Source: Dehalococcoidia bacterium
GTDB lineage: Bacteria; Chloroflexota; Dehalococcoidia; SHYB01; SHYL01
Assembly: GCA_009692825.1 (NCBI GenBank)
Contig: SHYL01000006.1
Coordinates: 1-43,327 of the forward strand
DNA length: 43,327 nt
Reading direction: 5' to 3'
The notes below the pieces were generated by a model. That model saw only the letters and a list, made by a program, of their open reading frames with translations. It was not told the DNA's origin and made no database searches. Of the stretch, positions 11,503-34,063 are shown piece by piece; the first letter of the stretch is position 1; each line of letters begins with the position of its first letter. The position numbers and the translations under genes were made by a program.

Positions 11503-13371
11503 ATGGAAACACACCTCCTCGAAGAACGACTAAAAAACGCTCCAACTTCACCGGGCGTTTATCTGATGAAAAATGAATCAGGCGTCGTTCTTTACGTGGG
11601 TAAAGCATCAAACCTCAGAAACCGGATACGCAGCTATTTCGGCTCACCCTGGAGCATGATAGATAAAGTTCAACGGCTCACCGCCCGCATAGACGATTTT
11701 GAGTTCATGGTCACCCACTCCGAGCAGGAGGCGCTGCTTCTTGAAAACAGCATGATCAAGAAGCACAAGCCCAAGTACAACGTACGCCTCAAGGACGATA
11801 AGACATATCCGTACATGAAGATCAGCCTCCAGGAAGATTTCCCGCGCGTTGAATTTACACGGCGTATCGAGAAGGACGGCGCAAAGTATTACGGCCCGTT
11901 TGCCAGCGCTAGCTCCCTGCGAAAGACGATGGATGCACTGAAAAAGCTGTTCCCATACCGATCATGCAACCGTGTTATCACCGGCAAGGACGCGCGTCCT
12001 TGTTTGGACTATTACATCCACAGATGCGTAGGCCCGTGCATAGGCGCCGCGTCTACAGGCGAATACCGCCAGGTCATCGATCAGGTCGTCAAGTTCATGG
12101 AGGGGAAAGACGAAGATGTCCTGACAGAGCTGAAAGCGAAGATGGAAGACTCCGCAGAAAAGCTCGAGTTTGAGCGAAGCGCCGTTTTACGTGACCAGAT
12201 TACCTCCATACAGCGCGTGACCGAGCGGCAGCGCATATCGATGGTCAACAAGCAGATGGATGCTGATGTCATAGCGCTTGCCCGGCGCAAGGATATAGCC
12301 TGGGCCGAGGTGTTCTTCATACGCCAGGGTAAGGTAATCGGAAGGGATAACTTCCTGCTCGAAGGCACCGCTGACGAAACCGATTCCAGCGTGTTATCCA
12401 GCTTCCTAAAGCAGTTCTATTCTTCCGCGTCTTACATCCCTGCTGAAATACTCCTGCCAGTAGAGCCGGAAGAATCAGAGTTAATCAGTGAGTGGCTCCA
12501 AAGCAAACGTGAAAAGAATGTCGAAGTATTAGTCCCTGAACGAGGCGATAAGAAGCAACTTATAGAGATGGTCGCCCAGAATGCGGAGCAGGGGCTGAAA
12601 GAGAAACTGATAAAGGAATCAGCCGACCAGGATTCGCTTGGCAAAGCGATGGACGAGTTGAGGGAGCAGCTGAATTTACCTCGTCTGCCAAAACGTATGG
12701 AGTGTTACGACATATCAAATATTCAGGGCACAAACTCCGTAGCCAGCATGGTGGTTTTCGAAAACGGCCAGCCTAAAAAGGCTCACTACCGTCGCTTCAA
12801 AATAAAAACGGTTGAAGGCGCAAACGATTTCGCTTCCATGCAAGAGGTACTCAGGCGCAGGTTCGCCAGATTCAATAAGGATACGATCGTGTCCAGCAGC
12901 GACACTGAAACGCTCGACAGCCAGAAGAAAGAGGCGGCATGGAAAATCGTGCCGGACCTTGTGCTCATAGACGGCGGCAAAGGCCAGCTTAATGCGGCGC
13001 TGGAGGTCTTCCTGGAGATGGGATTGAAGGATGTCCCGCTCGCGAGCCTTGCAAAGCAGTTCGAGGAGCTCTACGTGCCGGATAACACAGAACCTATCAT
13101 CCTGGACCGCAAGTCGCCTGCGCTATACATGGTCCAGCGTCTTCGCGATGAAGCACACAGGTTTGCTATATCCTTCCACAGGGACCGTCGGTCCACAGGC
13201 GCATACGAAAGCCAGATGGATTCGATTCCAGGCATTGGCCCTAGGCGCAAGCGCGCGTTGCTGCGCAAGTTCGGCTCGCTCGAAGGGATCCGCGAAGCGT
13301 CCGTAACAGATATAGCAGCGACTCCTGGTATGACCACCACGACCGCACAGAAACTGAAGCAGATGCTATAG
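11503..13371 (+). CDS. uvrC: UvrABC system protein C
   Basis: UvrC makes both incisions in nucleotide excision repair after UvrA/UvrB load it at a lesion. The 622-aa length is typical. Domains in order are the GIY-YIG nuclease (SPGVYLMKNESGVVLYVGK, residues ~16-34), a cysteine region (CNRVITGKDARPCLDYYIHRC-VGPC), a UVR motif (EKLEFERSAVLRDQ, ~210-225), the UvrC C-terminal RNase H-like endonuclease (MECYDISNIQGTNSVASMVV; VLIDGGKGQLNAALEV), and a terminal helix-hairpin-helix (SIPGIGPRRKRALLRKFG). The start has no clear ribosome binding site. M48 protease begins 7 bp downstream. Confidence 0.96.
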   Translation: METHLLEERLKNAPTSPGVYLMKNESGVVLYVGKASNLRNRIRSYFGSPWSMIDKVQRLTARIDDFEFMVTHSEQEALLLENSMIKKHKPKYNVRLKDDKTYPYMKISLQEDFPRVEFTRRIEKDGAKYYGPFASASSLRKTMDALKKLFPYRSCNRVITGKDARPCLDYYIHRCVGPCIGAASTGEYRQVIDQVVKFMEGKDEDVLTELKAKMEDSAEKLEFERSAVLRDQITSIQRVTERQRISMVNKQMDADVIALARRKDIAWAEVFFIRQGKVIGRDNFLLEGTADETDSSVLSSFLKQFYSSASYIPAEILLPVEPEESELISEWLQSKREKNVEVLVPERGDKKQLIEMVAQNAEQGLKEKLIKESADQDSLGKAMDELREQLNLPRLPKRMECYDISNIQGTNSVASMVVFENGQPKKAHYRRFKIKTVEGANDFASMQEVLRRRFARFNKDTIVSSSDTETLDSQKKEAAWKIVPDLVLIDGGKGQLNAALEVFLEMGLKDVPLASLAKQFEELYVPDNTEPIILDRKSPALYMVQRLRDEAHRFAISFHRDRRSTGAYESQMDSIPGIGPRRKRALLRKFGSLEGIREASVTDIAATPGMTTTTAQKLKQML

Positions 13372-14508: not shown

Positions 14509-15133
14509 TGACTGCCCTACGACTGCTGCTAGTACGTCACGGACAGACGCCATATAACCGCGATCTAAAACTACAGGGTAAAAACGACGAAGACCTCACG
14601 CCTTTGGGAATCAGCCAGGCTACCGCCGCTGCACAAGCACTCAAAAAGGAAAGCCCTGCAGCGATATATTCCAGCCCTTCAAAGCGAACATTGCAAACTG
14701 CCCACTTTATATCCTCCGTGCATAAAATTACTCCTATAACAAATCTAGGGCTAGCAGAGATGAATACCGGGCTGTTGGACGGCCTGACTTATGCGGGAAT
14801 AGCTGAAAAGTTCCCGGAATTCGCAAAGCTTTTGGAATCCGATCCAATAAAAGCCGTTCCTCCGTCAGGAGAATCACTGCCACATCTTCACCAGAGATGC
14901 TGGATGCAATCGGTGAAATTGCGCAAATTCACACGGAAGGGACAGTGTTATTGGTAAGCCACTCATTCTCTATTGCGTCGATAATATGCAAAGCAATCAA
15001 CCTGCCTCTATCTTCTTTTCGAAGCCTGCGTATAGATTTAGGAAGCATTACAGAGCTTTCGCTGTACGATAACGTAGCGATACTCTCGCGATTAAACGAC
15101 ACCAACCATTTGAACGGACTTAAAGCCAAATGA
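14508..15133 (+). pseudogene. Histidine phosphatase (phosphoglycerate mutase-like), frameshifted
   Basis: A histidine-phosphatase superfamily member, probably a phosphatase rather than a glycolytic mutase. The first part has LLVRHGQTPYNRDLKLQGKND with the catalytic His in RHG, then YSSPSKRTLQTA and the GLLDGLTYAGIAEKFPE block. After GESLPHLHQR the frame breaks at about 14897. One inserted base gives LDAIGEIAQIHTEGTVLLV, then SHSFSIASIICKAINL, which carries the second catalytic His (SHSFSI). So the two halves of the active site fall in different frames. The second frame ends at 15133, and TGA overlaps the tilS ATG (15130). Either a real pseudogene or a sequencing indel; the protein would be about 207 aa if repaired. 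Confidence 0.85.
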
Positions 15134-16551
15134 ATCCACTCGAAAAACACATAAAGTCTTCCCTTGAGCAAAATGGTTTTGCGGGCATAGAAAGACTTCT
15201 TCTTGTAGGCGTATCCGGCGGCCCGGACTCCGTGTGCCTTCTGCACGCTTTGCACGCCATCGCGAAAGATTCAGGCTTGCGAATCCATGTTGCGCACCTT
15301 AATCATGGCCTACGCGGTAAAGAGTCCAAGGCGGACGCTAATTTCGTACAGTCGCTCGCAAAAACACTTGGATTGCCGTCCACAATCAGGCTTGCCGACA
15401 CGCTGGCATTTAAAAAGGCTTACAAACTCACAACCGAGCAGGCTGCTCGCGAGCTCAGGTATCGTTTCTTCTACGCCCTTGCGAAAGAGCTAAAAGCAGA
15501 TGCAGTCGTGCTCGGGCATACCGCAGACGATCAGGCCGAAACAGTCCTTATGCACATGATCCGTGGCGCAGGTCTAAAAGGCATAGGCGGCATGTCGGAA
15601 ATGTCAGACTGGCGTATGAAGAGCAGCACACCTGCAATTACTATTCTGCGCCCTCTACTGCATATCACTCGAAAAGAGACGCACGACTACTGCGATAAGT
15701 TGAAGCTGGACCCGAGAACAGATTCTTCCAACCAATCGCTGGAATTCTGGCGCAACCGTATACGACTGCAGTTGATGCCGGAGCTAAGGAAACACAACCC
15801 CGAAATTGTTAGCTCGCTTCGACGCCTGGCAACTTTGGCGAGAGAAGGCAATGACTTTATCAACGTTGCGGCCCAAAATGTAATCAACTCGTTGGGCAGT
15901 GCGAGCGGGAATGGAATAGCGTTTCGCACCGACCGATTTCAACAGGTACATAAAACCGTTCAAGGCGCCGCTGTACGGATGGCAATAAAAACCGTCTCAG
16001 GCAGTCTTGATGATATTGAAGAGACCCACGTAGATGCTGTTTTGAGCCTCTTGAACGCCAGAGCCGGGTCAGGAGCCAATATCAGCCTCGGAATGCATGC
16101 TGTGCGCCTTTACAACGAGCTATGGCTAGGTTCAGGCGAACCTCCGTCGCCCTGGCCGCCGCTCAAGAAGTCATATGTCATCAAAGTGCCGGGCACAACT
16201 AGGGCGGGTCCATGGGATGTATTAGCGGAATCGTCAGGCCTAAAGAGCATCCGTAACGGCCATGATCGCATGCAGGTAAGCCTGCGAAAAGATGCGCTCA
16301 AAGGCAAACTAACCCTACGCCCATGGGGAGCTGGCGACATGATCGTCCCGCTGGGCATGAAGGGGCACAAGAAGTTGCAGGATGTCTTCGTCGACGAAAA
16401 AGTCCCTCGCCACTGGCGTAAAAATATCCCGGTATTATGCGATGACGATAAGGTATTATGGGTGACGGGCTTCAAAACAAGCGAGGAAGCTAAAACTACG
16501 AAAGAAACTAGGGAAGTCATAACGATATCCCTCCAGAAATCAGGACGGTAA
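15130..16551 (+). CDS. tilS: tRNA(Ile)-lysidine synthetase
   Basis: TilS converts C34 of the CAU-anticodon tRNA-Ile2 to lysidine, so it reads AUA. The 473-aa protein has the N-type ATP pyrophosphatase P-loop VSGGPDSVCLL (residues 28-38), HLNHGLRGKES, the HTADDQAETVLMHMIRG block and the LRPLLHITRKETHDYC region, and ends with a TilS C-terminal domain (LRPWGAGDMIVPLGMKGHKK). It starts at ATG 15130, overlapping the end of the upstream phosphatase reading frame, so the two are probably coupled. Its likely substrate tRNA is present at 8017 in the window. Confidence 0.95.
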   Translation: MNPLEKHIKSSLEQNGFAGIERLLLVGVSGGPDSVCLLHALHAIAKDSGLRIHVAHLNHGLRGKESKADANFVQSLAKTLGLPSTIRLADTLAFKKAYKLTTEQAARELRYRFFYALAKELKADAVVLGHTADDQAETVLMHMIRGAGLKGIGGMSEMSDWRMKSSTPAITILRPLLHITRKETHDYCDKLKLDPRTDSSNQSLEFWRNRIRLQLMPELRKHNPEIVSSLRRLATLAREGNDFINVAAQNVINSLGSASGNGIAFRTDRFQQVHKTVQGAAVRMAIKTVSGSLDDIEETHVDAVLSLLNARAGSGANISLGMHAVRLYNELWLGSGEPPSPWPPLKKSYVIKVPGTTRAGPWDVLAESSGLKSIRNGHDRMQVSLRKDALKGKLTLRPWGAGDMIVPLGMKGHKKLQDVFVDEKVPRHWRKNIPVLCDDDKVLWVTGFKTSEEAKTTKETREVITISLQKSGR

Positions 16552-16562
16552 AAGAGATTAAT

Positions 16563-17162
16563 ATGCCTCCTACACTAAAAATAGGCGAAGTAATAGAATC
16601 GACTACCACCACCTTCTCGGCGCAGTGCAAGCTGCACCAGCCGCCACCGTTCGGTTCATTCGTAGTTAGCGGTGGGGACATCACGACGATAGCGGTCGTC
16701 TCGCGGGTAGAGACGAAAAGCGTAGATCCAGGACGTTTGCCGATGGCATTAGGTGATGATTTATCAAATCAAGACGATGTCTACAAAAACAACCCACATC
16801 TTGACCAGCTGCTGCGCACCGATTTCCATGCGCTTATCGTTGGACATAAGGCCCGCAACATATGGCATCAGACCTTACCACCAACCCCTCCTAAGCTCCA
16901 CAGCTTTGTTTTCGTGTGCGCTGAGGTCGACGTTAAAGCATTTACATCAAACCTGGATTTCCTCAAGACTATTTTGAACGCTGGAATCCCAGCCACTGAC
17001 GCTCTCCTTGCAGCCATGCTTAATTACTCCTCATCAACCCAAAGCGACAGGGATGCTTTTCTATTCAACTCTGGTAAAAAACTGGCTTCGTTGCTTCCGA
17101 GGGAAGTATCCAGACTCACATCCATTCTTAAACAACTTACAGCAAACGCTTCTCCGGTCTGA
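16563..17162 (+). CDS. HerA-associated protein, possible HAS-barrel domain
   Basis: A 199-aa protein of unconfirmed family. Its N-terminal 70 residues (LKIGEVIESTTTTFSAQCKL, FGSFVVSGG, TIAVVSRVET) look like a small beta-barrel of the HAS type found at the N-terminus of HerA ATPases. It has no nuclease motif and no transmembrane helix. The C-terminal half is helical, with many Leu and Ser residues. It lies 26 bp upstream of a HerA-like ATPase on the same strand, so joint function in DNA end processing is a reasonable inference. It does not resemble NurA, the usual HerA partner. Naming it further would be speculation. Confidence 0.55.
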   Translation: MPPTLKIGEVIESTTTTFSAQCKLHQPPPFGSFVVSGGDITTIAVVSRVETKSVDPGRLPMALGDDLSNQDDVYKNNPHLDQLLRTDFHALIVGHKARNIWHQTLPPTPPKLHSFVFVCAEVDVKAFTSNLDFLKTILNAGIPATDALLAAMLNYSSSTQSDRDAFLFNSGKKLASLLPREVSRLTSILKQLTANASPV

Positions 17163-17188
17163 GACAGAAGTGGTTGTATAATCCAGCC

Positions 17189-18841
17189 ATGTCTACCACA
17201 GACCCATTCGATACCAAGGAATCTTTACAAAACCAGCGGCTGGGCGTTATCGTCGGCGGCTCGCTTTCTGAGGGCCTGATAATAAGGCTTGACCCACAGA
17301 TAGCAGTTGAGGACATGGCCGTCGGGCGGTTCATCACGATGCAAGGCGCTGGGAAGCGATTCATCGGCCTGGTTGCGGACGTATCGCTGGCAGACGACCC
17401 ATCACTCAGCCAGGCTGCACCAGAGGCAAACAATCCATTTATCTCCAAAGTCCTGTCCGCAACCTACGGCTACAGTGTTATAAAAGTAAAGCCATATCTG
17501 ATAATCGGCGGAACCGCGGAGGCAATCCTGGACGGACCTCAGCCAGCTAAAACGATTCCGGGACTGTTTACCGCCGCGGCCGAAGCATCGCAATCAGACG
17601 TTGAAACAATATTCGGTAAAGATGACGACAAGCACCTGTGGATTGGCAGCCCGCTCGATATGGAATGCAACCTCAACCTGAATGTCGAAGAAGCGGTTAG
17701 GCGCTCAAACGGGATTTTCGGCAAGAGCGGCACCGGTAAAACATTCCTGGCTCGCATATTGCTAGCGGGCATCGTACAGAAGGGGCGCGCTGTAAATCTA
17801 GTCTTCGATATGCACAGCGAGTACGGCTGGGGGGGGAAGAGGGAAGACGGCACGCAGGTTAAGGGACTGAAAGCCTTGTTCAGCTCTAAGGTGGCGGTAT
17901 TTACTCTCGACCCGGACCGTATGCGCGCCCGTGGCGTAAGCGCTGACCACGACGTCACGATCAGCTATGACGATATAGAGCCGGAAGACATATCTCTGCT
18001 AAAGAACACGTTGAACCTGTCGGACCCTGCCGCTGATTGCGCTTATGTACTCGCAAACCGTTTTGGCAATAAATGGTTCTCAAAATTCATGGCGATGGAC
18101 ACCGGCGACTTTGAGACTTACGCCAAGTCCATCAACGTAAACGAGCAGGCGCTTCGTACGCTGCACCGCCGCCTGCAGCAACTAACCCGACTGAAATTCC
18201 TGCGCCCGGATTCACGCAGCGATTCTGTTAATGCCATCCTGTCGAACCTCAACGGCGGACGCCACGTAGTCTTGGAATTCGGAGGCTATGGGGATGACCT
18301 CAAGGCTTACATACTTGTGGCCAACCTTCTCACGCGACGTATCCATGAGAAATACAGGGAACAGGTGGAAGCTGCCATGGGCGAGCGCTCCAAAGAACCC
18401 ACGCCGCTTGTTATAACCATCGAGGAAGCACACAAATACCTGACCCCAGGAATCGCTGGACAGACCATATTTGGAACCATCGCACGTGAAATGCGTAAAT
18501 ACAATGTCACGCTGCTTATCGTTGATCAGCGGCCGTCCGAAATAGACGATGAGGTAATGAGCCAGCTGGGAACGAAGTTCACCTGCCAGCTCGACAATGA
18601 GAAAGACGTGGACGCTGTGCTTTCCGGCGCATCTGGCAGGAGCGAGCTAAGGTCCGTGCTGTCACGCCTCGAGAGTAAGCAGCAGGCGCTAGTGTTCGGG
18701 CATGCTGTACCTATGCCTGTAGTAGTGCGCGTACGTGATTACGGAACTCTTGATTCTTACAAATCCTTTGGGTGGAAAGAACAAGCGGAGGCCATGAAGC
18801 AATCGAAGTCGGAAGTGGATAAGCTCTGGGGGAAATCGTAG
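17189..18841 (+). CDS. HerA-like (DUF87) ATPase / DNA translocase
   Basis: A HerA/FtsK-superfamily ATPase of 550 aa, expected to form hexameric DNA translocases that feed NurA-type nucleases in end resection. The N-terminal HAS barrel is residues ~15-120 (GVIVGGSLSEGLIIRLDPQI; GRFITMQGAGKRFIGLVADV). Walker A GIFGKSGTGKTFLARILLAG lies at 178-185, the acidic FDMHSEYGW at ~208-216, and ITIEEAHKYLTPG (DEXH-like Walker B) follows, then IVDQRPSEIDDEVMSQLGT. The track starts at TTG 17174; ATG 17189 is preferred. A TATAAT lies only 6 bp before that ATG, so a leaderless transcript is possible. No nurA follows in the window. Confidence 0.88.
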   Translation: MSTTDPFDTKESLQNQRLGVIVGGSLSEGLIIRLDPQIAVEDMAVGRFITMQGAGKRFIGLVADVSLADDPSLSQAAPEANNPFISKVLSATYGYSVIKVKPYLIIGGTAEAILDGPQPAKTIPGLFTAAAEASQSDVETIFGKDDDKHLWIGSPLDMECNLNLNVEEAVRRSNGIFGKSGTGKTFLARILLAGIVQKGRAVNLVFDMHSEYGWGGKREDGTQVKGLKALFSSKVAVFTLDPDRMRARGVSADHDVTISYDDIEPEDISLLKNTLNLSDPAADCAYVLANRFGNKWFSKFMAMDTGDFETYAKSINVNEQALRTLHRRLQQLTRLKFLRPDSRSDSVNAILSNLNGGRHVVLEFGGYGDDLKAYILVANLLTRRIHEKYREQVEAAMGERSKEPTPLVITIEEAHKYLTPGIAGQTIFGTIAREMRKYNVTLLIVDQRPSEIDDEVMSQLGTKFTCQLDNEKDVDAVLSGASGRSELRSVLSRLESKQQALVFGHAVPMPVVVRVRDYGTLDSYKSFGWKEQAEAMKQSKSEVDKLWGKS

Positions 18842-19061: not shown

Positions 19062-19919
19062 CTAAGTCTTCGCGCCTATTCTAGATCGGATATCTTTCAA
19101 TATATTCACGTTTTTCTGGTCTGGACCCTGGTCCTCGAAACCGGGTACTTCTAGAAGGAATGGTACATCGGCGAAAGCGGGGTGCGACATTATCGATTCG
19201 AACCCTGATATTCCTATCTTCCCCTCACCAATGTTCTCATGCCTATCTATACCCCATCCAAGCTCACCTTTTGAATCATTGGCATGCACAGCAACAAGGT
19301 TTTTTATCCCAATCTCTTTATCGAAATCTTCCATAACCTTTACGATTGCATCTTTATTCGCAAGGTTATAGCCTGCGGCAAACGCGTGTTCGGTATCCAG
19401 GCAAACCTTCACTTGCGGACTGTCTATCTCTCTCATAACCGTGCCAATATCAGCAAACTTGGCGCCGATATGCTGGCCCATGCCAGCGCAGTTCTCGATA
19501 ACGAGAAAGATGTCCTTTGGGGCGCGTTCCAGTACTGTGGTCATGCCGCCTGCCACCTGCTTCAGCACAGCATCATACCCTGCGCCTTTGTGGCTCCCGA
19601 TATGAAATATGACACCCTTGGCACCTATGGCTGAACCAAATTCCATATATTGGACTAGCGAGTCTATGGCCTTCCCAAGGTTTTCCTCAGTCTTCGTAGC
19701 CATGTTGATCAGGTATATAGCGTGTAGGAAAGTGTGATCTATTTTTGCATCATGCGCCTTCTGCTTATATTCAGCTGCTTCCGCATCTGTGACCATCTTG
19801 AACCGCCAGCTTTGAGGACCTGAAGCGAATATCTGAACAGCCTCCGCGCCGATCAGATTCGCGCGCTCAACGGCCTTTGTAATGCCGCCAGCAGTGGAAA
19901 CATGAGCACCGATTCGCAT
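19062..19919 (-). CDS. nfo: Endonuclease IV (AP endonuclease)
   Basis: Nfo cleaves abasic sites during base excision repair; it is a TIM-barrel enzyme with a trinuclear zinc centre. Motifs are MRIGAHVSTAGGI (N-terminus), LHAIYLINMATKTEEN, GVIFHIGSHKGAG, ENCAGMGQHIGAKF, VCLDTEHAFAAGYNL and HANDSKGELGWGIDRHENIGE, with the metal-ligand His, Asp and Glu residues in place. The ORF track starts at 19940, but ATG 19919 is preceded by AGAGGTG and aligns with the family N-terminus; this gives 285 aa, the usual size. It is divergent from pabB, with a 68-bp shared gap. Confidence 0.95.
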   Translation of the reverse strand: MRIGAHVSTAGGITKAVERANLIGAEAVQIFASGPQSWRFKMVTDAEAAEYKQKAHDAKIDHTFLHAIYLINMATKTEENLGKAIDSLVQYMEFGSAIGAKGVIFHIGSHKGAGYDAVLKQVAGGMTTVLERAPKDIFLVIENCAGMGQHIGAKFADIGTVMREIDSPQVKVCLDTEHAFAAGYNLANKDAIVKVMEDFDKEIGIKNLVAVHANDSKGELGWGIDRHENIGEGKIGISGFESIMSHPAFADVPFLLEVPGFEDQGPDQKNVNILKDIRSRIGAKT

Positions 19920-19987
19920 GAGACACCTCTGTAAAACCAATCAAGAATATAATCTCTCGGTAAGGTAGTTTATCAGACAGTCATTAA

Positions 19988-28833: not shown

Positions 28834-29757
28834 ATGAGCGGCAAACTGACAGTCGGCGCCTTAATTCCAAACTGGTATATAGGACAACCGCCCACCGGTC
28901 CTGATATCTCCAAATACAGCGCAGCCGCTGAAGATTTAGGCTTTGATTCGATATGGGCAATAGACAGGCTTTTTGGCCCACATCCCGTGCTTGAACCTTA
29001 TACAGTCCTAACCTGGGCAGCCGCCTCAACAACGCGCGTGAGGATCGGAAGCACGGTTATACTGGCAGCCCTCCGCAATCCCGTGTGGCTTGCCAAGGAG
29101 ATAGCTACGCTGGATTACATGTCTGGCGGTAGGATTGACCTGGGCATATCACTGGGCGGCACCGAGCAGGCGTACACATCTGTTGGCGTGCCGATGAACC
29201 AGCGCGCGGGGCGACTTGTAGAAGGCATAAAGATTATGAAAAAGCTGTGGAGTGAGGATAACGTTACATGGCAGGGAAAATATCAACAGCTGAAAGAGGC
29301 TACTATCCTGCCTAAGCCCATCCAGAAATCGATCCCAATCCTCATCGGTGCGACCAATGATAATGCCTGCGCCCGCGCTGGGCGTATCGCCGACGGCTGG
29401 ATTGCCAACGCCTTCAGCTCACCCGAGCAGATCAAACAGAGGTGGCAGAAGGTTCAGGATGGAGCTAAAACGGCAGGCAGAGACCCGGGTTCACTAAGCT
29501 GTAGCAAACTTTTGTATCTCTGGGTGGACGATGACGAAGAAAAGGCGAAGAAAATTGCGTTCGATTTCTACCAGTCTCAATACCCGAGTATCAACGTTAT
29601 GAACTTCATGGCGTGCGGTCCTGCCGACAAATGCTCGAAATTCATTCAAGCTTATCTTGACGCTGGCGTTACTAACATCATCCTGGGACCAACAGGGCTG
29701 GATATAAAACAGCTGGAGACAATCAAGAAAGACATAGTGCCTAAATTACACATATAG
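28834..29757 (+). CDS. LLM-class flavin/F420-dependent oxidoreductase
   Basis: A 307-aa luciferase-like monooxygenase superfamily TIM barrel. Sequence blocks include YSAAAEDLGFDSIWAIDRLF, TVLTWAAASTTRVRIGSTVI, WLAKEIATLDYMSGGRIDLG and IPILIGATNDNACARAGRIA, typical of the LLM F420-dependent subgroup. The substrate is unknown. The presence of two PPOX-fold proteins nearby favours F420 as the cofactor; FMN is the alternative. AAGGAGA stands 8 bp before the ATG. It ends convergently with the Lhr helicase gene, with a 17-bp overlap of the coding ends. Confidence 0.88.
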   Translation: MSGKLTVGALIPNWYIGQPPTGPDISKYSAAAEDLGFDSIWAIDRLFGPHPVLEPYTVLTWAAASTTRVRIGSTVILAALRNPVWLAKEIATLDYMSGGRIDLGISLGGTEQAYTSVGVPMNQRAGRLVEGIKIMKKLWSEDNVTWQGKYQQLKEATILPKPIQKSIPILIGATNDNACARAGRIADGWIANAFSSPEQIKQRWQKVQDGAKTAGRDPGSLSCSKLLYLWVDDDEEKAKKIAFDFYQSQYPSINVMNFMACGPADKCSKFIQAYLDAGVTNIILGPTGLDIKQLETIKKDIVPKLHI

Positions 29758-32700
29758 TGAGTACGGGCCGCTGAACTACCCCCACCTGACTCAGTCGCGG
29801 CTCCAACAATCGTTTCGCTTGTGACATGGTCTGTTCGTCCGCCTGCGTGATTACCCGCAAATCGCCGCCCTCCAGGGAAACTATCGGCACGCCTGCCCTA
29901 AACGCAATCTTGTTACCGAATATGGCGGGTACCCTGTGACCGGGCGTAAGCACTCCCACAATATTAAGCGGGTCGCACGCCGATATCTCTACCATCTGCG
30001 GCTCGTTCTTGTCCTTCTTAAGCTTGCGCAGCGCTTCCACAGCCTCAGGCAGGGCGAACTGCTCGCCGATGTAGCTCGACACGAACCGCCCGCCGCGGAT
30101 CTCGCCGCGCGCCTCCATCCTTCTGTAGGTATACAGAAGGTCTCTCCATCGAGGGGCCATCGGCTCCCTGGCCAGCATCTCCCAGAAGACTATCCCGTAG
30201 CGCCTCAGAAGCTGTACAGCCCTCTGCTCCAGCGCATCATCCGAGGGTTCACCCGCATCTAGCAGGAACCAGCGTCCGCCGGCATGGTCGCGCAATCGGC
30301 GGTGGAAACGTGAGATGCGGGTTGAGCGCTTAGCCAGCGGCGACAGCAGTCGTCTCAGCGCGGTAAAGCCATCGGCTGATACGTATCCAGCTGCTATAAG
30401 CTCACGGAGCGCATCCTCTACCTGCACAGGCAGTATGTGGGAGGCAGTAATGAGGTCGGGAATAAATGTCGCGCCCTTGTCAGTGAGTATCTTCAATATT
30501 GTTTTGGCATCGCCGCTCAGATGCGCATCCTTGGGTGTGGCGTCCAGCAGCCAGCGCAGGTCCTCCCTGACCGCCAGCGATAGCGATGCGGTACGGGTTA
30601 GAGCCCTAAATGCCGCGTCGTCGGCAGGCTGTTTGCGACGTGAGAACCGCCCCCAGACAATCTCGCCTGTTAACGATAGCTTGTCCAGCATCAATGACGC
30701 GTAATCAGCTACACGTTGTGGCAGTATCTCGGCTTCCCACGCGATCGCCGGCGCCTCAAACCCCTGTAGCTTGTCAATGACTTCCGCTACGCCTGCCTCA
30801 CCCGTGATACGAGTGCTCTGGTATGCGTTTTGCCAGTGGAACAGGAAATCAATAAATGCCGACGGCGGCACAGGCTCGATCTCTTTGCGCAGGCGGGCCA
30901 TTGTGCCTCTGTGGATTCGCTCCAGCACCCGCCTATTGCAGAACTCATCTTCGTGAACGCCAGCAGTAAAGTGCCCGCGCATAATCGAGCCGCCTGCTTC
31001 TACAGCAGCAACCGCTATCTTTACCGGGCCTTCTCGCAATCTTAGCTGATCCGCCATTGACGCTATGGTGAAAGGCCCGATGCTTTCGGCACGAGTCTTA
31101 ACGAATGTTATTACTGATTCTTCCTGCTCAGGAAGATCACCCTTTATCTTGAAATCAGAGGATGGTTCAAGTTTGGCACCGGGATAGACCGCCCTTGCAA
31201 GATTACCGCTCTCTGTCGCTATCCAGAAAACATCGCGATCTAAAGTAGTAAGTGTTTGCGCCCGTCCTGCCCGCTTGAGTACATCAAACCATCCCTGATA
31301 TTCCTGGACATCACCTTTGCACCGTGTTTCAACGTCTTTGAAAGGTAGAGCGCCCAGCGTTAGCAGCATATCATGCAGTTCATCCGCATCCCGTGCCACA
31401 GGCCACGCTAGGTCAGATTCCTCCGCGATAACTTCCAGGCTCAAAGCGCCCAGGTCACGCGAGTCGGTGGTCAGAGCGCGAGGAAGGGTGACGGCGCGTG
31501 CTCGACGCTCCTCGAGCGGCGCATCATCCAAGAAAGCGTACGGCATCGCGTTGAGTATCTGGTGTGAGAACGCGGACGGCTGGACTGTGTCGCGTGCCAT
31601 TATCTGGATATCGCCGTCCTCGATTAATTTCAGCACGTCCTTCAATCCCGCCACGTTCATGGCTTCAGTCAGGCAATCGCGCATCGATTCAAATACAAGC
31701 GGGTGGTCTGGCACTTCGATATCGCCTGGGTTATTGTCCTGGCAGCCCGTCTGTGCCGGAAACACAGCCGCCAGTAGATCGTTGGCGCGCATGCGCTGGA
31801 GTGGCGCAGGCACCTTACGGCCGCCGCTGTGCCTTAGCAGCATCAGAGCGCGGGATGAAGTCCATCGCCACCGCGTACCGAACATCGGCGAGGCCAGGAC
31901 TGCTTGCTCCACCGCATCTTCAACTGTTCTAGTGTCTACTAGCAACATTATGTCTTGTAGTGGGGCCGAGTGCTGGGGTCCAAGAGACAGATTGATACCA
32001 TCGTCAGTCGCTGCCGCCTGCAATTCGAAATCGAATGACCTGCAGAAACGCTTCCGCAAAGCCAGTCCCCACGCGCGGTTTATGCGGCCGCCCAGTGGAG
32101 AGTGAACCACCAGCTGCATGCCTCCACTCTCATCGAAGAAGCGTTCAGCTACAATCTTGGAGCTTGTAGGCACGACTCCAAGCACGCGCTTACCTTCCAC
32201 GATATATGCGACCGCCTGGTGCGACGCCTCGATATTTGCACCAGACTGCTCCTGCACCCATCTTTCGGCTTCAGCAGGCTTATCTAGCCTTTCATCGATG
32301 CCTTCTCTTAGCTCGGACACCTGCGCCGAAAGTTCGTCGGTACGGGCTGGCGCCTCTCCGAGCCAGAAGGGGACGGTAGGCGAAGAACCCTGGGCATCTT
32401 CCACCCAAACCTTACCGCTTTCAACACGCCTGATCTTCCACGAAGCGTTCCCAAGCAGAAATACGTCGCCGGCAAGACTTTCTACCGCAAAGTCCTCATT
32501 CACTGTGCCCACAAAAGTTCCTTCAGGCTGAAGAAGTACCTGGTAATCGGCATTGTCGGGTATCGCGCCGCCGCTGGTGATAGAGATCAATCGTGAGCCC
32601 CTGCGGCCCTTAAGCGTCCCGTTGATGGCATCTCGATGGATATGCGCGGCACGGCGTCCCTGGCCGCGGTCTATGCCTTCGGAAAGCATTTCCAGAACGG

Positions 32701-34063
32701 AGTCATAACGCTCTTTCGGCAAATCTCTGTACGGATACGCGGTTTTGCACAGGTCATAAAGGTCGCTTTCGCTTATCTCTTCGCACGCGCAAGTGGCCAC
32801 CATCTGCTGTGCGAGCACATCCAAAGGCCAGTCGGGTATACGAAACGCGTCTAATTTCTTCTGACGTATCGCTCGCAGCAAAGCTAGGCACTCGATCAAT
32901 TCATCGCGTGTAAGCGGGAGCAACCGGCCTTTGGGTAAGCCACCCAGGAAGTGGCCTGATCGACCTACACGCTGGAGCAGCAGGCTTATGGAGTGGGGCG
33001 ACCCTATCTGGCATACGAGATCAACAGAACCAACGTCTATGCCGAGCTCCAGGGATGCCGTGGCGACGCACACCTTCACTTCGCCTTTCTTGAGTTTCTG
33101 CTCCGCATCTTTGCGTGTCGCTCGCGATAGGCTGCCGTGGTGTGCCACAACCATCGATTCGCCGAGCTTCTCTGAAAGCATGTGCGCCACGCGCTCAACT
33201 AGACGGCGTGTATTCACAAATAGAAGCGTGGTCTTATGCTCTTTGACCATTTCGGCTATACGCTCGATTGTTGCGTCCCATAGCTCGTGAGAGGCAATTG
33301 GACCGAGCTCAGACTCGGGCATCTCAATCTCAAGGTCCATCTCTCTGGAGTGTCCGGTATCCACGATGAGGCAGTCGGCTTTCCCATCTTTTGAAATATG
33401 CTTATTGCCTACTAGGAACCGCGCCATCTCCTCGATGGGCTTCTGCGTAGCGGACAGTCCTATGCGTGTAATCGGCGCGTCGGCAAGCCGGCATAGGCGC
33501 TCGACTGTTAGCGTCATGTGCGAGCCTCGCTTGGTGCTGGCGACGGCGTGTATTTCATCCAGGATAAGTGTCGCGGTGCTCTTTAGCGCCTTTCGTCCGC
33601 TCTCGGATGTCATCAGGATATACAGAGATTCAGGCGTCGTGATCAAAATATGGGGCGGCTTTTTCGCCATCGATAGCCGCTCGCTGGCAGGCGTGTCGCC
33701 CGTGCGTACTGCAGTGCGTATCTCCTGTAAAGGCACACCCATCTTTTCGGCGATAATTCGCATCTCGGCAAACGGCTCAGCCAGATTCTTTTGTACATCC
33801 GCCGAAAGTGCCTTCAGCGGCGATACGTAAACAACCTCAGTTTTGTCCTGTAGTGTGCCTGCCACCGCAGAGCGTATTAATTTGTCCAGACATATGAGGA
33901 ATGCCGCCAGTGTTTTACCTGAGCCGGTAGGCGCGGCGATAAGCGTATGCCTGCCCTGCGCGATAGCCGGCCAGCCTTGCTCCTGCGCAGGGGTCGGCTG
34001 GGCAAACCGCGATACGAACCACTCACGAACTATGGGATGGAATATTTCGAGTGAAAACGGCAA
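29741..34063 (-). CDS. lhr: Lhr-like superfamily II DNA/RNA helicase
   Basis: Large helicase-related repair protein of 1440 aa. Superfamily II motifs are Q-motif PTPAQEQGWPAIAQG, Walker A APTGSGKTLAAF (residues ~44-55), the LDEIHAVASTKRGSH DEIH box, LSATQKP and QRVGRSGHFLGG. The Lhr core continues with the winged-helix region, and the long C-terminal part (from ~residue 850) has the winged-helix domains of the Lhr CTD type. The start is TTG 34063, preceded by AAAAGGTGA at good spacing; no better ATG is upstream. Lhr proteins act as 3'-5' helicases in repair. It follows the PPOX gene by 23 bp. Confidence 0.94.
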   Translation of the reverse strand: MPFSLEIFHPIVREWFVSRFAQPTPAQEQGWPAIAQGRHTLIAAPTGSGKTLAAFLICLDKLIRSAVAGTLQDKTEVVYVSPLKALSADVQKNLAEPFAEMRIIAEKMGVPLQEIRTAVRTGDTPASERLSMAKKPPHILITTPESLYILMTSESGRKALKSTATLILDEIHAVASTKRGSHMTLTVERLCRLADAPITRIGLSATQKPIEEMARFLVGNKHISKDGKADCLIVDTGHSREMDLEIEMPESELGPIASHELWDATIERIAEMVKEHKTTLLFVNTRRLVERVAHMLSEKLGESMVVAHHGSLSRATRKDAEQKLKKGEVKVCVATASLELGIDVGSVDLVCQIGSPHSISLLLQRVGRSGHFLGGLPKGRLLPLTRDELIECLALLRAIRQKKLDAFRIPDWPLDVLAQQMVATCACEEISESDLYDLCKTAYPYRDLPKERYDSVLEMLSEGIDRGQGRRAAHIHRDAINGTLKGRRGSRLISITSGGAIPDNADYQVLLQPEGTFVGTVNEDFAVESLAGDVFLLGNASWKIRRVESGKVWVEDAQGSSPTVPFWLGEAPARTDELSAQVSELREGIDERLDKPAEAERWVQEQSGANIEASHQAVAYIVEGKRVLGVVPTSSKIVAERFFDESGGMQLVVHSPLGGRINRAWGLALRKRFCRSFDFELQAAATDDGINLSLGPQHSAPLQDIMLLVDTRTVEDAVEQAVLASPMFGTRWRWTSSRALMLLRHSGGRKVPAPLQRMRANDLLAAVFPAQTGCQDNNPGDIEVPDHPLVFESMRDCLTEAMNVAGLKDVLKLIEDGDIQIMARDTVQPSAFSHQILNAMPYAFLDDAPLEERRARAVTLPRALTTDSRDLGALSLEVIAEESDLAWPVARDADELHDMLLTLGALPFKDVETRCKGDVQEYQGWFDVLKRAGRAQTLTTLDRDVFWIATESGNLARAVYPGAKLEPSSDFKIKGDLPEQEESVITFVKTRAESIGPFTIASMADQLRLREGPVKIAVAAVEAGGSIMRGHFTAGVHEDEFCNRRVLERIHRGTMARLRKEIEPVPPSAFIDFLFHWQNAYQSTRITGEAGVAEVIDKLQGFEAPAIAWEAEILPQRVADYASLMLDKLSLTGEIVWGRFSRRKQPADDAAFRALTRTASLSLAVREDLRWLLDATPKDAHLSGDAKTILKILTDKGATFIPDLITASHILPVQVEDALRELIAAGYVSADGFTALRRLLSPLAKRSTRISRFHRRLRDHAGGRWFLLDAGEPSDDALEQRAVQLLRRYGIVFWEMLAREPMAPRWRDLLYTYRRMEARGEIRGGRFVSSYIGEQFALPEAVEALRKLKKDKNEPQMVEISACDPLNIVGVLTPGHRVPAIFGNKIAFRAGVPIVSLEGGDLRVITQADEQTMSQAKRLLEPRLSQVGVVQRPVLTICVI

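Follow-up and report, generated by a model that had tools for sequence, protein, structure and literature searches.

A 199-residue protein with a predicted HerA-like HAS barrel, hereafter HAS199, and the HerA ATPase encoded downstream of it probably make up two of the three components of a HerA-NurA DNA-processing machine that is characteristic of Chloroflexota, with HAS199 as its accessory subunit or adaptor. The two genes lie on the 43,327-nucleotide stretch of DNA analysed here (hereafter the window), part of a Dehalococcoidia genome (G000) of 1.17 Mb in 62 contigs that is 76% complete. HerA-NurA is usually described as a two-protein machine, in which a six-fold motor is mismatched to a two-fold nuclease. 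The literature searched, with partial coverage, yielded no description of a third component, and an earlier mention of a stand-alone HAS-barrel protein is possible. To that extent the original prediction of an undescribed module holds, in the form of a conserved HAS-barrel protein associated with HerA.

HAS199 sits between tilS and herA, and 11 bases separate it from the gene on either side:

15130..16551, + strand: tilS (Pfam ATP_bind_3 and TilS_C), not part of the machine
16563..17162, + strand: HAS199, the 199-aa HAS-barrel accessory protein and putative third gene of the HerA-NurA set (open reading frame with ATG; family alignment; model)
17174..18841, + strand: herA, HerA ATPase of the Chloroflexota type (open reading frame, 555 aa from TTG; Pfam; model)

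Both reading frames are present as originally described, and a scan of the window next to the pair found no adjoining nurA. tilS and HAS199 are probably cotranscribed. The 555-aa reading of herA begins at TTG, and an ATG at 17189 would give 550 aa; the TTG start (17174-17191) is probably too early, the ATG suiting the N-termini of relatives better. Further out, a loose repair-gene cluster is formed with uvrC (11503-13371) on the upstream side and a TIM-barrel gene of the AP endonuclease 2 family (19062-19940) on the downstream side. Another DNA-repair-type gene, on the minus strand (29741-34063), encodes an Lhr-type large helicase of 1440 aa with DEAD, WH_Lhr and DEAD_assoc domains.

The larger reading frame encodes a genuine HerA. 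It matches the Pfam DUF87/HerA central domain (7.3e-28) and the Pfam HAS barrel (1.2e-6; 28.9 bits against a cut-off of 25.2), and the PDB matches listed for its structural model, which is of moderate confidence (pLDDT 72), are all HerA or HerA-like chains (best 3.8e-20). Its barrel and ATPase motifs map as follows:

17237..17509, + strand: HerA's own HAS barrel, residues 22-112 (Pfam HAS barrel; strands and helix in the model)
17720..17743, + strand: HerA Walker A, GKSGTGKT, residues 183-190 (24 relatives share G183, K184 and G186-K189 without exception)
18407..18433, + strand: HerA Walker B stretch, LVITIEEAH, residues 412-420 (all 24 relatives keep EEAH)

Judged by sequence, this HerA is a member of the HerA superfamily outside the NF040819 equivalog, 'DNA double-strand break repair helicase HerA', for which it scores 82.2 bits, below the cut-off of 970.

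As a single sequence, HAS199 matches the Pfam HAS barrel (PF09378) marginally (12.3 bits, E 0.19; cut-off 25.2 bits). Among its relatives, 13 of 28 match at E<=0.1, the best at 4.1e-5. The fold agrees: an AlphaFold2 model based on 28 family members (mean pLDDT 93.8) finds HerA chains or HerA-like TdpA in all 50 of its 50 listed Foldseek matches to the PDB (best 3.8e-7), the HerA N-terminal folds of 4d2i and 9x1m being the closest among those listed. The HAS-like N-terminus originally proposed is therefore backed by family and fold together. Four strands, helix alpha1, a long strand, a linker strand and a helix follow one another in the order seen in residues 22-147 of the HerA model, and by this order of strands and helices residues 6-118 of HAS199 correspond to HerA model residues 22-137. 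The parts of HAS199 are:

16578..16916, + strand: residues 6-118, predicted HerA-like barrel strands, docking-helix position and linker strand (model; Foldseek)
16755..16811, + strand: residues 65-83, acidic loop and helix alpha1, the position that binds NurA in known HerA HAS domains
16959..17144, + strand: residues 133-194, predicted C-terminal helical bundle replacing the ATPase domain (model)

On this model, HAS199 is a HerA-like HAS-barrel domain plus linker, capped by a helical bundle of ~60 aa in the place of the ATPase. Consistent with this, Pfam found no ATPase domain in its 199 residues, and the Walker-bearing motor domain is missing. Sequence searches elsewhere returned little. NCBIfam, PADLOC and plasmids gave no match to HAS199. 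The family profile found no significant relative among PDB sequences, only chance-level RapA matches (best E 1.1), and the C-terminal ~60 residues are helices with no recognised relative in that search. An hhalign comparison with the HerA family of the window type was weak (probability 1.6%, E 0.033) and collinear over barrel and linker. HAS199 is nonetheless a family whose members share 35-46% identity in this class and outside it, and because of this conservation its pairing with herA is not a matter of chance.

HAS199 tracks one type of HerA across the phylum. The named genomes closest to the window's HerA in an alignment search are Dehalococcoidia and other Chloroflexota metagenome-assembled genomes, and among 60 relatives we found HAS199 in 40, a HerA match in 43 and NurA in 40. 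We then compared three independent searches, for HAS199, HerA and NurA, over a phylum sample of 251 Chloroflexota genomes, defining window-type HerA by E<1e-50. Of the 102 genomes with a window-type HerA, 97 encode HAS199, as does 1 of the 149 without one (98 of 251 in all, after one marginal match, G106 at E 4e-4, was dropped). The Fisher p value is about 3e-62, a statistic that ignores relatedness. The sole genome with HAS199 and no window-type HerA (G072) is 57% complete. The five HerA genomes counted without HAS199 include one with a divergent copy beside herA, recovered by a broader profile (G094), one whose HerA lies at a contig edge (G227) and two that lack both HAS199 and NurA, as if one linked locus were missing (G081, G286). 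Of the 98 HAS199 genomes, 97 also have NurA. Conversely, HAS199 was found in none of 36 genomes that have NurA and only a distant HerA, six of which were read directly and hold plain nurA-herA pairs (G209, G253, G159, G148, G257 and G208). HAS199 therefore follows a particular HerA type rather than NurA generally.

The original prediction had HAS199 paired with HerA instead of NurA, as an alternative partner or loader. HAS199 does adjoin herA in the window's genome where nurA does not, and nine other genomes among the matches listed have the same linkage. A search of this genome with PF09376, however, returned one match over the cut-off, on a separate contig (G000:C50:17770-18624, E 4.9e-27). 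The translated reading frame matches NurA across the whole domain (3.1e-26) and carries the acidic and histidine motifs D-G-S, D-G and E-A-H common to 20 relatives; it has no match among PDB sequences at E<=0.01. With an intact nurA in the same genome, NurA in nearly every HAS199 genome, a common gene order that includes nurA, and no nuclease-like fold among the top structural matches of HAS199, the replacement of NurA by HAS199 is extremely improbable, and we rejected it. Since the genome holds one HerA over the Pfam cut-off and one NurA, the simplest pairing is of the window's HerA with this NurA.

Loss of NurA through an assembly gap was also rejected, as both genes are internal to their contigs, nurA on one of 35 kb and herA on one of 43 kb. 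Rather, nurA has been relocated in the window's lineage. Its neighbours there are unrelated to repair (identities judged by eye), and neither HAS199 nor herA is beside it. The genome also encodes SbcD, of the Mre11 family (G000:C61:15921-16721; L242), unlinked to herA and nurA.

The NurA of this class has a peculiarity of its own. A four-cysteine motif is inserted in all 21 of 21 alignable class members (L093:7519-8736, the NurA of the window's genome and relatives) and in none of seven checked NurAs from genomes without HAS199, which suggests a metal or iron-sulphur site. As a marker of the three-gene type the motif was rejected: it is common in Dehalococcoidia, and the pattern is missing in 21 of 90 HAS199-bearing loci, some of which differ by spacing only.

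Gene order in relatives places HAS199 between the two known components. In named-genome loci, gathered with the HerA alignment as query, all 33 of 33 that hold the three genes within the fetched stretch have them in the order nurA-HAS199-herA on the same strand. nurA is often directly upstream of HAS199, and in some of these loci one to three other genes lie between them. Of the two observations that were to refute the original prediction, one was made, nurA adjoining the 199-aa gene in relatives, while the other, a 199-aa gene that does not occur together with herA, clearly was not. NurA accompanies the pair and is not replaced. No fusions among nurA, HAS199 and herA were found in the named loci; apparent ones, considered as proof of contact, were discarded because long open frames near some matches are stop-to-stop artefacts.

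Linkage, scored within 4 kb in 97 genomes, varies more: HAS199 is near both partners in at least 51, near nurA only in 29, near herA only in 10 (the window's genome included) and near neither in 7. With the 4-kb limit and the NurA matches listed, these figures are lower bounds for linkage. One genome scored as unlinked (G103) nevertheless has nurA adjoining HAS199, and G226 holds all three genes together. Four genomes of the same order as the window's, in a sister family (G001-G004), have nurA together with HAS199 and carry herA on a separate contig; in the window's genome HAS199 has stayed with herA, and nurA is elsewhere. The break can therefore fall on either side of HAS199, with all three genes retained. 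These breaks bear on whether HAS199 is simply an unrelated small protein that chanced to settle between nurA and herA. Adjacency alone could produce a conserved order, yet co-occurrence persists where one linkage has been lost (39 genomes among the matches listed) or neither is seen, and the fold of HAS199 is that of HerA's own NurA-docking domain; we consider operon inertia hardly credible. Pairwise distance correlations among the three genes, all 0.73-0.79, reflect plain vertical inheritance and single out no partner, so that as a measure of co-evolution they were uninformative beyond it.

What could a HAS barrel do without a motor? In Thermococcus kodakarensis, the HAS domain of HerA contacts NurA through alpha1 and the loop that precedes it (PMC12977600), and NurA binding by Deinococcus radiodurans HerA requires three acidic residues on its docking surface (PMC9960219). 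Residues 65-83 of HAS199, equated with this position by the order of secondary-structure elements and not by residue-level superposition, include the most acidic 13-residue stretch of the family, and in the family alignment P78 and L83 are invariant and L80 nearly so. By analogy with these complexes, HAS199 could occupy the junction between NurA and HerA, and we infer that it is a physical subunit there. Its barrel might stack on, or join, the ring of HAS barrels of the HerA hexamer, and its acidic loop and alpha1 might bind NurA as HerA's HAS domain does. In this position HAS199 might adapt the two-fold NurA dimer to the six-fold motor, or control how or when NurA is loaded. The assembled machine would then drive duplex DNA into the nuclease, which would process its ends or degrade it.

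The same features would also suit a regulator or decoy that covers the docking surface of NurA, or joins the HerA ring, and restrains the nuclease until it is needed. HAS199 keeps the NurA-docking position and has no motor, and roughly one genome in three links it to nurA alone, as such a role might have it. These data fit the adaptor role equally well, and we regard restraint as a credible but unlikely function. Returning to the adaptor, we can offer a stronger version only tentatively: that a motor-less, HerA-like HAS-barrel subunit may be obligatory in Chloroflexota for joining the hexameric pump to the dimeric nuclease.

HerA-like motors also serve in anti-phage defence, with partners such as SIR2 and DUF4297 that bear effector functions (PMC12977600), and HAS199 could in principle be an odd effector of such a system. 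PADLOC HerA models do match the ATPase (best 1.8e-30), and for the archaeal HerA-NurA complex a part in defence has been proposed (PMC12977600). The NCBIfam anti-phage HerA models, however, give the ATPase 87.3 and 66.5 bits, far short of their cut-offs of 800 and 850. Those neighbours that were tested (uvrC, tilS and the AP endonuclease family) have housekeeping roles, nurA, HAS199 and herA correlate in the manner of vertically inherited genes, and an effector domain was looked for and none found. A defence locus is very improbable. In SIR2-HerA, DUF4297-HerA and TdpAB, as here, a HerA-like motor has a partner protein; HAS199 differs in being itself a HAS-barrel protein, a fragment of HerA in form.

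Parallels also lie among the HerA-NurA complexes. The D. radiodurans complex (PMC9960219; PDB 7wrw, 7f6d) likewise has a HerA with HAS barrel, RecA-like ATPase and helical insert, a NurA encoded in the genome, and a HAS domain as the NurA docking surface, whereas the Chloroflexota pair is accompanied by a third protein and its HerA and NurA are divergent. Archaeal HerA-NurA with Mre11-Rad50 (Sulfolobus; Thermococcus, PDB 9x1l) provides the HerA N-terminal fold closest to HAS199 among the listed matches and shares the Mre11-family gene, which in the window's genome is on another contig; a separate HAS-barrel gene is not described for it in the literature surveyed. Within the phylum, other Chloroflexota (e.g. 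G209, G253 and G148) have two-gene loci with nurA directly upstream of herA, but their HerA belongs to another subfamily, matching the profile at E about 1e-22 to 1e-26, and HAS199 was not found.

DNA end processing is the role usually assigned to HerA-NurA. The authors of the T. kodakarensis study doubt it and propose that HerA-NurA destroys foreign DNA (PMC12977600). For HAS199 itself, the present analysis supplies a functional hypothesis for a conserved family that NCBIfam leaves unmatched and Pfam matches only marginally. Some of its hosts are likely thermophiles (e.g. a Thermoflexus record, L157), which would aid reconstitution. If HAS199 should prove an obligatory adaptor, it would represent an assembly principle undescribed for the two-component archaeal and Deinococcus complexes. 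A companion of one HerA type that is near-universal throughout a phylum, built from the domain on which NurA docks, offers a handle on how HerA and NurA are coupled and controlled.
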